Assembly: GCF_009690625.1 (NCBI RefSeq)
Contig: NZ_CP033878.1
Coordinates: 124,001 to 188,000, forward strand
Reading direction: 5' to 3'
DNA length: 64,000 bases
From: Halorhabdus sp. CBA1104
Lineage (GTDB): Archaea > Halobacteriota > Halobacteria > Halobacteriales > Haloarculaceae
Under the pieces are notes generated by a model. That model ran no database searches and was not told the origin of the DNA. It was given only the letters and a program-made list of their open reading frames with translations. This document shows positions 11,100-51,388 of the stretch, piece by piece. Every line of letters begins with the position of its first letter. Positions within the stretch are counted from its first letter, which is position 1. The position numbers and the translations under genes are program-made.

Positions 11100-11717
11100 A
11101 TGTTCCAGACGCGGCCGGATCGGGATGCCGAGGTCGTCCTCGTGGGACGATCGAACGTCGGGAAGTCGACGCTGATGCGCGAACTCACCGGTCACACCTT
11201 CGACACGGGCCAGCGACCCGGTGTAACGCAAAGCCCCAACCACTACGACTGGACCAGCGAGGACTTCGTTATTTCGGACCTCCCTGGCTTTGGGTACATG
11301 GAAGGCGTGCCCGATGACGTCCGCGAGCAGATCAAGACCGACGTGGTACGCTACGTCGAGCAACACGCCGACAACATCCTCGTGGGCGTGCTCGTCGTCG
11401 ATGGCAAGAGCGTCATCGACATCATCGACCGCCACTCCGGCCCCGAGGAGATTCCCCACGATGTCGAACTGTTTCACTTCCTCCGGGAGGTCGGAATCCC
11501 GACCGTCGTCGCCGTCAACAAGATGGACAAGGTCGACGACCGTGAGGCGCGCCTGAATGCCCTCTGTGACCGCCTTGGCCTGCACCCGCCCTGGAAGCAA
11601 TGGCAACATACTATCGCTCCGATCACCGCCAAACGTGGCTCGATCGATGCACTGACCGAGGCCGTCCGCCACCACCTCCACGAAGCCGAACGCGACGATC
11701 TGTTCAAGTTCTTCTGA
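11100..11717 (+). CDS. engB: EngB family GTP-binding protein
   Basis: This 205-aa GTPase of the TrmE-Era-EngA-EngB class likely assists large ribosomal subunit assembly. Visible motifs are G1 [11 protein letters not shown]2/switch region [14 protein letters not shown]3 [11 protein letters not shown]4 NKMDK and G5-like APITAKRGS. The ATG at 11100 ([18 protein letters not shown]) is chosen because it places G1 at the usual distance; the frame stays open upstream but with non-coding-like composition. Length is as expected for archaeal EngB. Confidence 0.92.
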
Positions 11718-11724
11718 AACGACC

Positions 11725-11759
11725 TTTTTACGTCGGTGGGTCCGCGATGCGAACCCACC
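11725..11759 (+). terminator. T-tract and 7-bp hairpin between convergent genes
   Basis: Just after the engB stop there is a T5 tract (11725-11729), the usual archaeal termination signal. Next comes an inverted repeat, GGTGGGT at 11735-11741 against ACCCACC at 11753-11759. The genes on both sides converge here, so it could end transcripts from both. The loop resembles a tRNA 3' end (GTGGGTCCG ... GAACC), which may link it to the tRNA-derived palindromes described elsewhere in this window. Confidence 0.4.
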
Positions 11760-11856
11760 TCGCAAAAAGCTCGGCCAAAAACATCCGAGCGCCTGCGGCG
11801 CTCGGCGAAACGCGCCGCGGGGCGGCGCGTATGCTCTTCGGCGACGGTTCTCCGAT

Positions 11857-15799: not shown

Positions 15800-16206
15800 C
15801 TGTCTCACCTGATTCGAGGCGGAGGCCCCACCCTCAAGGAGTCGTTCGAGAATCGAAGATTCTCGTGATCCCGAAAATCGGAGATTTCTGGTGGGCGAAC
15901 GAGACTCTCTGCGTCTCGTCAACGTCGGCAAAACGCAGACGACGGAGGCGCACCTGTAGACGTGCGCTTGAATAGCGAGGGATCGAAGATCCCTCGGACC
16001 ATGCGAACGGCGAAGCCGTGAGCAGATCGCGGGACATTGAACGTGAGTGGGGAGTACAACCCTCCTGCCTCGGTTGAGGCATAGAACGGGAGTCCACGTG
16101 AAAGCCCTAGTGCAGGCTCACAGCCTGCACGTCGTCAGACGTAGTCTGACGGAACCCTCAACGAGCGAGCGGGTCCTTAGACCCCGAGCGAAGTAGGGTA
16201 GGGTAG
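15800..16206 (+). mobile_element. Hairpin-rich relic of an IS200/IS605-like (TnpB/omega-RNA type) 3' end
   Basis: This gap of about 550 bp has no intact gene but holds a chain of short palindromes: CGAGAATCGAAGATTCTCG (15850 region), GAGGGATCGAAGATCCCTC (15980 region), ACGGCGAAGCCGT, CAGGCTCACAGCCTG and CAGACGTAGTCTG. It ends with CCCTCAACGAGCGAGCGGG ... CGAGCGAAGTAGGGTAGGG at 16157-16206. That closing hairpin resembles the right ends of haloarchaeal IS1341/IS605 elements, where the guide RNA scaffold overlaps the tnpB 3' end. No TnpB catalytic motif remains. Identification is from memory of such ends, so moderate. Confidence 0.55.
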
Positions 16207-16207
16207 T

Positions 16208-18415
16208 TTACTCAGTGACGATATCGTCGACCAGTTCGACTGCTTCCTCGGCCAGCGCGTCGTCGATCTCGCCACCGTACCGGACCCGCTCACGGAGCGC
16301 TGCGACACGGCGGACGCGTTCGCTCGCGTCGATGGCCGTCAGATACGCCCGAACGGTTTCCCCGGTCCGTCGCTCGCGGTACTCGCGTGCCAGCACGTAC
16401 TCCAGACGCTCGAAGGCGCGTTCGACGTCCGTTGTGGGATCGGTCCGCGGTTGAAAGCGGAGCCACAGCGCCCGGTAGGCGCGCTGTGTCACGCCACTCC
16501 GCCGGGCCATCCCCGCGACGCCGATCACGGCGAGTGCGCCAAGTGCCGTCTGTTCGGCGGTGGGTATCTCAAACGGTATGCCGGCCGTCTCGTCGTCATC
16601 GTCGCTACCGTCCCGTGGGGCCGTCTGCGTCTGTCCGCCAGTGTCGACCGTCACGGTATTCCCCCGTCCCGGGCCGCCTGGCGGCGTTGGAATGTCGAAA
16701 TCGGGCGGGAGATTCGATTCAGTGCCGTTTTGCTCGATCGGTGTTGGCGTCGGTGTCGGCGTGGGCGTCCACTCGCCGTCGTCGCTGCCCGCCGTATCGA
16801 CGTTCGAGGCGTTGTTCTGGCGTGCTGTCTCGAGCGTCCCCTGCTCTGCCTCCTCGCGTGGGGCTGCCGGCGTCGGGTCGAAACGAACCCAGCCGACATC
16901 CGGGACGTACATCTCGGTCCATGCATGGGCGTTCTGGCCCCGGACGACCCACTCGTTTTGCTCGACGCGCTGGCCCGAGGTGTACCCCACGACCATTCTG
17001 GCGGGGATGCCTTGACTGCGGAGCATGACAGTCATCGTCGTCGCGTAGTAGGTACAGTAGCCTCGTTCCATCTCGAAGAGGAACGCGTCGGCGATCGAGC
17101 CGGATGGCTTCGAGACGTTCAGCGAGTATGCCCGGTTGCGTTCGAGCCACTGCTCGATTACGCGGGCCGTATCGTAGGGATTGTCAGCGTTTCCAGTGAG
17201 TCGGTCCGTCCGATCGACGACTCGCTCCGGGGTACTATCGGGCAACTGCAAGTACATCTCCTCGACGGTCTGTGGGTACGATCGGCCAGCGGTCCGGAGT
17301 TCACGGAGGGTTGCGACCGGTATCGCACTCTCGACCCGGTAGGTTTCGTTGGCTGTGAGTGCTCGCTCGGGCTGGAGACCACCCAGACGCGTCACGCGGG
17401 CCGCGGATGCGGCCGGCCCATCGACGGCCGTTGGCCGCCAGACAGCCGGCATCGCTCGTGTCTGGCTCACCACCGTATACGTCTGGGAAACACTTCGATT
17501 CCGGCCCGGAACGTCGCTGAGACGGCGATCGAGCGGCCCCGTGTTCCCACGTCTGACCCAGCCATCGCCCGTATACACGTTGAACGCATTGACCCGCCAG
17601 TACTCTGGGCTGTCACCCTCGACTCGAAAGCGGACCTTGGGTGACAGCTCCAGGCTGCCGGCGATCGACAGCGAGTTGTCGACGTTCAGGACGTTCCCTT
17701 CGAGGGTGCCCGCGCTCGCGTCTCCGCCACCGGCAGGGCTCTGGAGACCGGTATCCGGCGAGAACGTGTAGGCCAGCCCTGTCGGAACGACGGTGACTGT
17801 GGCCGACACGATGATCGCCAGTGCGATGACGGTCCCAACGACATCTGCGTCCCCGACGCTACCGCCGAATCGATCGAGGTCACCGAGACCGACCAGTGCA
17901 ACGACGCCGACGACACCAAGCAGCGTGAGTGTCGGTGCAGCGTCGCCAGTCAGGACGAAAAACGTGAGTGTTCCGCCGCCGACGACCGCACTCGCGACGT
18001 AGCGTCGGCGGACGGCGAGATACCACGTGAGAAACACGGGCGCAGGCGTCACGGCGAGGACCCAGGCTTCGAGGTTGACGATTCCCAGCACGGACTGGCC
18101 GGTCAGTAGCGCTATCGTGTAGCGGACGTGGGGCCACGGGTCGAGTGAGCCGGTGCCAAGCTGGGTGAGATACCAGCCCATCCCGACCGAAAACAGGCCA
18201 ACCGCGAGCCCGACTGCGTGTCTGAGACGAAGATACCTGGCCAATAGTGTCGCCCCACCAAGTGCTAGCACGACACTCACCAGAACCGTCCCGGGATCGC
18301 TGATCACGTCGATCACGTGATAGAGCACGCCGACGAACGAACTGATGACGACGAGTCCAGCAGCGAGGGCGATCAGTCGAACTGGGGAACGGCCCGCTCG
18401 ATCGGCGATCCTCAC
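16208..18415 (-). CDS. Transglutaminase-like membrane protein (TgpA type, DUF3488/DUF4129)
   Basis: This 735-aa protein has about six to seven N-terminal membrane helices (residues 10-215) and then an exported region. A transglutaminase-like fold follows, with the catalytic Cys in RGYCTYYATTM (about residue 452), His in NAHAWTEMYVP and Asp in WVRFDPTP. A Thr/Pro-rich stretch (TPTPTPTPTP) leads to another helix near 630 and a cytoplasmic DUF4129-like tail. It is coupled (ATGA) to the DUF58 gene and follows a MoxR ATPase, the classic MoxR-DUF58-TgpA set thought to mature or remodel cell-envelope proteins. Confidence 0.9.
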   Translation of the reverse strand: MRIADRAGRSPVRLIALAAGLVVISSFVGVLYHVIDVISDPGTVLVSVVLALGGATLLARYLRLRHAVGLAVGLFSVGMGWYLTQLGTGSLDPWPHVRYTIALLTGQSVLGIVNLEAWVLAVTPAPVFLTWYLAVRRRYVASAVVGGGTLTFFVLTGDAAPTLTLLGVVGVVALVGLGDLDRFGGSVGDADVVGTVIALAIIVSATVTVVPTGLAYTFSPDTGLQSPAGGGDASAGTLEGNVLNVDNSLSIAGSLELSPKVRFRVEGDSPEYWRVNAFNVYTGDGWVRRGNTGPLDRRLSDVPGRNRSVSQTYTVVSQTRAMPAVWRPTAVDGPAASAARVTRLGGLQPERALTANETYRVESAIPVATLRELRTAGRSYPQTVEEMYLQLPDSTPERVVDRTDRLTGNADNPYDTARVIEQWLERNRAYSLNVSKPSGSIADAFLFEMERGYCTYYATTMTVMLRSQGIPARMVVGYTSGQRVEQNEWVVRGQNAHAWTEMYVPDVGWVRFDPTPAAPREEAEQGTLETARQNNASNVDTAGSDDGEWTPTPTPTPTPIEQNGTESNLPPDFDIPTPPGGPGRGNTVTVDTGGQTQTAPRDGSDDDDETAGIPFEIPTAEQTALGALAVIGVAGMARRSGVTQRAYRALWLRFQPRTDPTTDVERAFERLEYVLAREYRERRTGETVRAYLTAIDASERVRRVAALRERVRYGGEIDDALAEEAVELVDDIVTE

Positions 18416-49984: not shown

Positions 49985-50132
49985 GTGCGACGGCCGAGAT
50001 TTGAACAGGTGTCAGACGTTCCGGGCGTGCGCCCTCGCTGCCTCACGGCTTTGCCGTTCGGCTAACCGAGGTCGCTTCGCGACCTCGCACCGCTCGGGCG
50101 TTCCGGGGCTGCGACTGACGTGTTCAAATCTC
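49985..50132 (+). repeat. Partial tRNA-Gly 3' end in a palindrome (B1)
   Basis: The first 22 nt (49985-50006) are identical to the 3' end of the tRNA-Gly gene at 50206-50227. The element then carries GTGTCAGACGTTCC and hairpins (GGGCGTGCGCCC, CGAGGTCGCTTCGCGACCTCG-like), and closes with a mirrored GTTCAAATCTC at 50122-50132 preceded by CTGACG. Arms 49996-50015 and 50115-50132 pair along most of their length. Confidence 0.72.
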
Positions 50133-50480: not shown

Positions 50481-51388
50481 ATGACGACCAACGCACTCGT
50501 GCCGTCGTCCCTCTGCCGGGAGGCCGAGGACAAACGCGAGGCAACTCGCAAAATCGGATACGTGGCCCGCGCGGCCACGATATTCCGGGTCGATCGGCTC
50601 ACCATCTTCCCCGACCCAGATGGGGCGGGGAAGTGGGGCGACGGGTTCGTCGAAACCGTGTTGCGGTACGCCGCCACACCCCCTACCTCCGAAAGGCGGT
50701 ATGGGATAGGCGGGACGAACTGGAGTGTGTCGGCGTCTTGCCGCCGCTCCGCGTTGCGACACGGACCGGCTCCGGATCGGACGATTCGGGGTCGTTGAGA
50801 CAGGGAATCGTGACCGAGGTCGGACCTGATGGGCGCGTCCGGGTCAATTGCGGCCTGCAACACCCGATCTCTCTCCCCGTTCCGGACGACCGGAATCTCA
50901 GGGAGGGAGAGCGTGTCACCGTCAGGGTCTCTTCGAGACGACCGGTCCGCGCGAAACTCACCGACGAGCCCCCAGCGGGCTTCCAGGTGGATCGGGCGGA
51001 CCTCGATACGGCGCTCGCACGCTCCAATGTCGGCATCACCATCGCCGCATCCCGTCACGGCCAACCGCTCACGTCTGGGCGAATTGGCCAGTTGATCGGG
51101 ACGATCGATGGGGCCGGCGGCGACCTGACAGTCGTCTTCGGGGCACCCGAGCGCGGTTTGCCGGCTATCCTCGGCGTCGATGCGGAGTCCGCTGGCTCGG
51201 CCACCGTGGCGGAGCTGGCGGCTGCCGACGACACGGAGGACGGAACTGGCGATGCGGTCACCGGATCTCGGCCGGACGGAACCCGGTTCGACCTCTGGCT
51301 GAACACGGTTCCTAACCAGGGAAGCGAGGTCGTGCGAACGGAAGAAGCGATGTTCGCCACCCTCGCACCCCTGACGCTCACGGAGTGA
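50481..51388 (+). pseudogene. SPOUT RNA methyltransferase (putative RNA uridine N3 methyltransferase), frameshifted
   Basis: From ATG 50481 the protein reads MTTNALVPSSLCREAEDKRE, RKIGYVARAATIFRVDRLTI and FVETVLRYAATPP, the conserved start of the SPOUT-class methyltransferase that heads haloarchaeal L3 operons. At a run of five C (50679-50683) the frame shifts; one extra C restores YLRKAVWDRRDELECVGVLP and the rest (GQPLTSGRIGQLIGTIDGAG, FGAPERGLPAIL, LWLNTVPNQGSEVVRTEEAM). The intact protein would be about 302 aa. The C-terminal knot motifs are intact. The break lies in a homopolymer, so sequencing error is likely. Confidence 0.88.

Follow-up and report, generated by a model that had tools for sequence, protein, structure and literature searches.

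Palindrome-associated transposable elements (PATEs) are known from Haloquadratum walsbyi, and some of them derive from IS605-type elements by repeat-mediated deletion of the core, as described in the accessible text of PMC3119063. The locus reported here, a chain of palindromes at 15800-16206 of a 64-kb stretch of DNA (the window, meaning the whole stretch analysed), resembles the PATEs of that account in its lack of inverted terminal repeats, its palindromes near the ends, its lack of target duplication, a length too short for a transposase and its short targeting sequence; it differs from them in retaining an almost unchanged omega-RNA region, in carrying four added modules and in having lost half of its left-end palindrome (PMC3119063). 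Taken feature by feature, the locus is transposase-free, has IS605-like borders without target duplication, and keeps the near-end palindrome on the right and half of that on the left; as regards mobility, the same derivative occurs at a second site in another genus (locus L017), where it may have arrived by movement or arisen by an independent deletion. Of the traits of the IS200/IS605 family, insertion 3' of a fixed short target without duplication was found, and a tnpA or tnpB gene was absent. The region is, with a probability of roughly 93%, a tnpB-less, non-autonomous derivative of a haloarchaeal IS200/IS605 (IS1341-type) element, that is, a PATE as that class is described in PMC3119063.

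The omega-RNAs of haloarchaeal IS1341-type tnpB elements (sotRNAs) are expressed in Halobacterium salinarum, according to the available portion of PMC12558985. The window element is like them in having a structured RNA at the tnpB 3' end and a right-end hairpin, and unlike them in that it has no tnpB, has extra modules within the RNA and is known from sequence alone (PMC12558985). SMR-A repeats of Haloquadratum, which enter near-terminal palindromes of IS605-type elements and PATEs, are described in the accessible text as about 110 bp long, with inverted terminal repeats and alike within a type (PMC3119063), whereas the modules of the window element are twin hairpins of about 45-58 bp (about 49 bp for type B) with stems that vary, and are not SMR-A in this sense. 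GTAG- and CGTC-tagged REP palindromes and Rickettsia palindromic elements have also been described (PMC3733652, available portion); these too are short palindromes, paired or arrayed, that occur inside genes as well, and CGTC often precedes module B (CGTCC stands ahead of it in many of the loci compared, though not all). Here the modules differ in consisting of two different hairpins with fixed linkers, and the REP account, in its available portion, names no archaeal genome (PMC3733652). Among the papers listed by a literature search that covered few subscription papers, there was no other report on orphan omega-RNAs or palindromic repeats of haloarchaea. The remnant is of an ordinary haloarchaeal kind, set apart by its intact RNA and its modules, and is of moderate interest; it links degenerate IS605 remnants, TnpB guide RNAs and small palindromic repeats, which are usually treated apart.

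Borders, insertion site and convergent stop codon

In intact relatives of the element a tnpB gene lies between the left and right ends; the TnpB of one of them, L018, has 427 aa and matches Pfam PF07282 above and PF01385 below the cut-off. The window keeps the left end, two scraps of tnpB (15923-15977 and 16026-16084) and the right end (Table 1), and, judged against these relatives, the region derives by deletion from a tnpB element of the IS200/IS605 family and now measures 403 bp. A preliminary description of the stretch had proposed an IS605/TnpB-like relic from which the protein gene is gone. Both points held: the left end, the tnpB scrap and the right end are common to intact relatives, the empty site is found in a congener, and only 49 residues similar to TnpB remain. 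Its limits of 15800-16206 were roughly right but a few bases off, the element spanning 15809-16211. The CCCTCAACGAGCGAG...AGTAGGGTAGGG structure in which it saw the chain ending is present, starting at 16155, and corresponds to the right end found in intact tnpB elements. A search of a plasmid collection found similar DNA in 86 records, with a transposase or TnpB annotated under the match in 11 of the 20 listed.

The empty site is that of congener L047, in which GTGTCTCAC adjoins TCGTTGATGATATCG directly; the window has CTGTCTCAC, then the element, then TCAGTGACGATATCG, and the two flanks of L047 are 92% and 84% identical to those of the window. It follows from this site that the element measures 403 bp and was inserted after TCAC without duplication. 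All six other genomes of the genus have a SUI1 gene to the left and a transglutaminase-like gene to the right (Pfam names), with the element absent between them, and TCAC stands ahead of the left end in each of the 13 relatives compared there. The subterminal palindrome of the right end is kept and folds well as DNA (Table 1). That of the left end is half kept: in related elements the left end runs on into a 3' palindrome arm that is missing in the window, and the DNA fold of what remains is no better than shuffles (z -0.53; the left end of L033 gives z -4.84). A change from GTGTGC to GTGGGC, present in the window and L017 and also in L030, allows CCCACC/GGTGGG pairing; the fold weakly favours this pairing, which might be a stand-in for the lost left-end stem.

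Table 1. Features of the window element and its flanks, in window positions.
Feature	Position	Strand	Basis
Target tetranucleotide TCAC (transposon-adjacent motif), host sequence	15805..15808	+	Empty site in congener L047
Whole inserted element, 403 bp, without target duplication	15809..16211	+	L047 empty site; ends CTAATTCGAGG...GTAGTTTAC common to relatives
Left end, only the 5' arm of the left-end palindrome	15809..15841	+	85-100% identity to related left ends
Module type A remainder; first hairpin 15847-15865, second chimeric with module B	15842..15891	+	Comparison with relatives
Module type B; chimeric left hairpin 15871-15891, right hairpin 15899-15919	15871..15919	+	Model R2, 52.4 bits, E 7.5e-13
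tnpB C-terminal codons, also the 5' part of the omega-RNA scaffold	15923..15977	+	84-98% identity to relatives; R1 alignment
Module type C; hairpins 15976-15996 and 16007-16019	15978..16025	+	Presence/absence among relatives
omega-RNA core: final tnpB codons to stop TAG 16082-16084, then conserved non-coding stretch	16026..16108	+	Alignments A1, A2
Module type D, within the right-end stem; hairpins 16110-16130 and 16133-16151	16109..16154	+	Presence/absence among relatives
Right end: terminal palindrome, last bases TTTAC	16155..16211	+	Match to relatives; DNA fold 16104-16211 z -4.96
TAA stop of the transglutaminase-like gene 16208-18415, now from the element's right end	16208..16210	-	Pfam PF01841
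Presumed TnpB guide position, host DNA running antisense to the last part of the transglutaminase gene	16212..16231	+	Layout of TnpB systems
Starts of the ten perfect hairpins	15847, 15875, 15899, 15948, 15976, 16007, 16066, 16110, 16133, 16171		

On the complementary strand TCAC reads GTGA, and the TGA within it terminates the convergent gene in L047; TTTAC, the final bases of the element, gives GTAAA on that strand and yields TAA with the frame unchanged. The element lies 3' of TCAC at the convergent gene's stop codon, in a site that congeners have empty, and its right end provides that gene with a new in-frame TAA. Related elements were surveyed for the same arrangement (105 matches, 93 distinct, 86 with a recognised right end and 7 without), in a set picked by similarity to the window element, which it includes, and not at random, and which contains some related insertions, such as L018 and L032 at one site; 76 elements served for the test of frames and 85 for a test of tnpB content, one having too little sequence upstream. 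The TTTAC terminus occurs in 78 of the 86 with a recognised right end. Among the 76 with enough flank, 47 adjoin an antisense open frame of at least 60 codons, and the longest frame is the TAA frame in 33 of these, the other frames accounting for 9 and 5. In 10 of the 33, another frame likewise stayed open to the end of the stretch, and removal of such cases leaves 23 of 37. By the same rule the background, taken from sites of one genome, is 13 of 64 at the TTCAC sites of the window and 78 of 467 at its TCAC sites (Fisher P 4e-5 and 5e-9, respectively); with ambiguous rows included, the comparison is 33 of 47 with 13 of 65 (P 1e-7). Purging of gene-breaking insertions would explain the excess at stop codons, and placement exactly at a stop codon, which the element's right end then restores, would account simply for how such elements can be harmless to their carriers.

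The palindrome chain and its twin-hairpin modules

Ten non-overlapping perfect hairpins (stem of at least 5, loop 3-8) lie within the 407 bp of 15800-16206, against 2.9 on average and never more than 8 in 300 first-order-Markov sequences of 407 bp each, which confirms the chain of palindromes first noted in the preliminary description. Of the 13 strong hairpins (stem of at least 8, 3-nt loop) in the 64-kb window, 4 fall in the region, and simulation never gave more than 2 per 407 bp (60 simulated windows). With a stem of at least 6 and a loop of 3-7 the region has 6, as does a stretch from 14335, simulated maxima being 3-5 (20 windows), and with a stem of at least 7 its 5 hairpins are equalled by a stretch from 60271. 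The number of hairpins is therefore striking only under the strong-triloop and the laxest rules, the other counting rules making it less unusual. Clustering by chance was excluded by the simulated sequences and windows for the stem-of-at-least-5 and strong-triloop counts. The region has no match to an Rfam family at the gathering threshold, and a protein-coding role was excluded since it carries short frames only.

The view that all of the palindromes are IS ends was dropped after relatives with and without inserts had been compared. Three stretches of palindromes, 15842-15919, 15978-16025 and 16109-16154, proved to be added sequence, in units of about 45-58 bp with two hairpins each and mostly 3-nt loops. 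The four strongest hairpins (15847, 15976, 16110 and 16133) belong to these twin-hairpin modules, which are inserted at fixed places, and are outside the conserved RNA core. The type C module is absent from L005, L023, L030, L032 and others and present in L017, L018, L020, L026 and L029; type D is lacking in L005 and L017 and present in L004, L006, L019 and L023; and L018 carries a type B module in frame within tnpB. The omega-RNA part has the basic length in 29 of 44 type I elements and extra sequence in the other 15 (at least 225 nt vs about 190), and extra sequence occurs in 12 of 39 type II elements (at least 211 nt vs about 157). Modules have entered at the left end, the tnpB 3' end and the right end, one class lying in the loop of the right-end hairpin. 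The window element has gained four of them, A at the left end, B and C in the tnpB 3' end and D at the right end.

The type B consensus is CCAGAAxxx-NNN-xxxTTCTGG tgtgcga ACGAxxxx-NNN-xxxxTCGT. A pattern fixing the outer stem bases retrieved 22 sequences, of which the 19 with a tgtgcga-like linker were aligned; 98.2% of cells in the stems pair, the outer stem bases being fixed by the pattern. Among these 19 copies, 21 cells are changed on both sides, compared with 4.7 in shuffles, and the covariation score is 0.194, compared with 0.075 in shuffles (reached by 0 of 500) and 0.091 in the best slid control. Weaker measures gave 6 pairs in which both partners had changed (shuffles 3.4, reached by 8 of 500) and 8 further pair types (shuffles 7.4, reached by 228 of 500); none of these shuffle figures is a probability, because the copies are related. 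One module type, B, has covarying stems. For type A, the alignment (A4) is too gappy for a pair count.

The type B model has 1-12 matches (E of at most 0.001) in 18 of 20 genomes, this one included, in counts that take in weak and overlapping matches, with 150 of several hundred to four thousand candidates per genome scored. Its matches in this genome are the window, an inverted copy in a TnpB at 2518720 and a weak one near the TnpB at 1745659; the last (28.9 bits), at the right end beside that TnpB, reads as type A. With eight queries, a TnpA or TnpB match was found within 1.5 kb in 11 of 30 type B loci and in none of the other 19, a number that is an upper bound since a TnpB-like C-terminus can be read in L178 and several others show end-like motifs. 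A type C copy also stands between genes at 1685086 in this genome (L003), a locus in which no tnpB was recognised. Because they occur in varied elements and away from tnpB, the modules look like separate entities that enter tnpB elements.

Those 19 loci, and the intergenic position of the window element, would also suit an unrelated REP/BIME-like or terminator array that merely lies near an IS remnant. Such an array is very improbable here: the left end, the tnpB C-terminus, the omega-RNA core and the right end interleave with the modules, and an exact insertion site bounds the whole, so that both the empty site and the match to R1, the model of 29 relatives discussed below, contradict it.

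Several further palindromic loci came to light. In reverse orientation and with the reading frame kept, a type B module occupies G000:C1:2519033-2519081 (L012, L159), within the C-terminal part of a very different TnpB of this genome that has tnpA upstream. Two related genomes, G177 (L018) and G257 (L032), carry the tnpB element at one common site, but only one of the two copies contains the type C module, a pair that would date the gain or loss of that module. A different palindromic repeat lies between convergent genes at 11713-11840 of the window and has 6 matches in the genome, itself included; a type C module adjoins its copy at 1685151. About 100 bp from a tRNA gene, at 50000-50110 of the window, is a palindrome chain in the style of the modules (ACGGC TTT GCCGT; GAGGTCGC TTC GCGACCTC).

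Loss of tnpB and the second deleted copy

The left ends of L033 and L018 carry the type A module hairpin CGAAAATC-GGA-GATTTTCG, and the tnpB of L018 carries the type B module hairpin CAGAAATC-TTC-GATTTCTG. The hairpin of the window, CGAAAATC-GGA-GATTTCTG, is a chimera, with its left arm as in module A and its right arm as in module B of L018, which implies that a deletion joined the two hairpins. It was probably in this way, through recombination between two module hairpins, that tnpB was lost; some 1.2 kb would have been removed by recombination or slippage between the hairpins of modules A and B, leaving the chimeric one.

Among the matches listed, with the best two candidates per genome scored in the searches for related elements and for the junction, the left end and the chimeric junction are contiguous in 2 of 391 genomes, G000 and G069. 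A scan of a contig collection for the exact chimeric junction gave no match, this genome included, and records very near the window are possibly absent there. The G069 copy (L017) lies in another genus at an unrelated site, with flanks that do not match those of the window, and has one base in common with the window that was not seen in six other sequences compared. The window is identical to L017 at 225 of 241 positions and to the intact L018 at 224 of 241; of the columns that separate these three, 7 (4 in the chimeric arm) unite the window with L017, 6 unite it with L018, and 7 set it apart from the other two. Independent deletions at the same short repeat could have produced both deleted copies; a single deletion followed by movement to a second site is also possible. 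The lack of the 3' arm of the left-end palindrome makes transposase-driven movement of the deleted form doubtful, and the lost left-end hairpin and the substitution counts weakened an earlier view that such movement was certain.

These observations bear on whether the locus is a dead relic, that is, an intact element that inserted, lost its tnpB in place and retains an RNA too young to have decayed. We consider this fairly probable; it agrees with the PATE reading on the identity of the locus and differs over the activity of the RNA and of the deleted form. The broken left-end hairpin is in keeping with it, as is a short deletion repeat that could recombine repeatedly, with substitution counts that do not group the deleted copies, while the occurrence in L017, at another site and in another genus, of the same chimeric junction and of the one base absent from the six other sequences argues the other way.

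The omega-RNA region and RNA-only loci

In an alignment of the 29 type I relatives that lack inserts, spanning 190 nt, mean column identity is 94%, and the non-coding stretch 3' of the stop codon is likewise highly conserved; their consensus fold has 56 pairs, 10 of them with double changes, and a small covariation term (-1.11). Of the scaffold columns, 93 of the 94 invariant ones and 157 of the 158 near-invariant ones are unchanged in the window, the single invariant change (C123T) turning a G-C pair into G-U, and R1 matches it with 123.6 bits (E 2.5e-40). The preliminary description had held that the RNA part may remain expressed, as an orphan omega-RNA; similarity to TnpB 3' ends was found, at the E value just given, and the sequence of the RNA part is almost unaltered. 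The scaffold of the TnpB omega-RNA family, including the right-end hairpin, is conserved in the window element, and the predicted fold of the relic RNA (z -5.0) leaves the added modules as separate hairpins. A TnpB relic with an orphan omega-RNA is thus supported at the level of sequence, although the near-perfect conservation of the scaffold may reflect merely a young deletion. Less certainly, transcription would yield a 289-nt RNA that takes the fold of an omega-RNA, the modules projecting as side hairpins, and that might be loaded by a TnpB in trans.

Among the 85 elements tested for tnpB, 61 match the TnpB of L018 over at least 330 residues (56 of them with an open frame of at least 330), 5 match partly and 19 over fewer than 150 residues. 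These 19 are called TnpB-less by similarity to that one TnpB, so that diverged TnpB genes are possibly miscounted; L066, L109 and L024 have long open frames upstream. Ten of the 19, including the window and L017, have 0-2 mismatches at the well conserved columns of an 81-nt core, the remaining TnpB-less elements have 4-14, and elements with tnpB have medians of 0 and maxima of 8 and 4. With 19 of 85 elements lacking tnpB and 10 of those 19 having a clean core, RNA-only loci are not rare, which also counts against a dead relic.

TnpB guides sit directly 3' of the right end, and TnpB can retain its element through cleavage of empty sites. In a polyploid cell, cutting of empty alleles would retain a remnant. 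The preliminary description had advised looking for a TnpB elsewhere that could use the RNA, and a whole-genome search with R1 gave one other clear match (49 bits, E 1e-13; the third match has E 0.8), which overlaps and follows the 3' end of a 410-aa TnpB at 1745659 (conserved domain at G000:C1:1745659-1745862). This protein is 43% identical to the TnpB of L018, and the right end of its RNA differs from that of the relic; it is a possible partner because its RNA is related, though diverged. A functional orphan omega-RNA, transcribed, loaded by such a TnpB in trans and cutting empty alleles of TCAC plus flank so that the remnant is kept, is a possibility that we regard as doubtful. It would fit the conservation of the scaffold, the candidate partner with its related RNA and the omega-RNA expression published for H. 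salinarum (PMC12558985, available portion), and it sits poorly with the different right end of the partner's RNA. The divergence of that partner (43% protein identity, 49 bits for the RNA) is in turn what a dead relic would lead one to expect.

A broader proposal, which we hold to be unlikely, is that haloarchaea have many RNA-only TnpB loci, that this one is a live orphan omega-RNA served in trans by a borrowed nuclease, another TnpB, which maintains the protein-less element, and that the modules, spreading by some route, enter guide-RNA scaffolds and TnpB C-termini where they are tolerated and seed the deletions that free the RNA. If TnpB proteins encoded elsewhere do use RNA-only remnants, guide repertoires would exceed the number of tnpB genes. 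Elsewhere in the window, positions 50826-50925 match Rfam RF03135 (L4-Archaeoglobi leader) with 73.4 bits, a leader named for another archaeal class.
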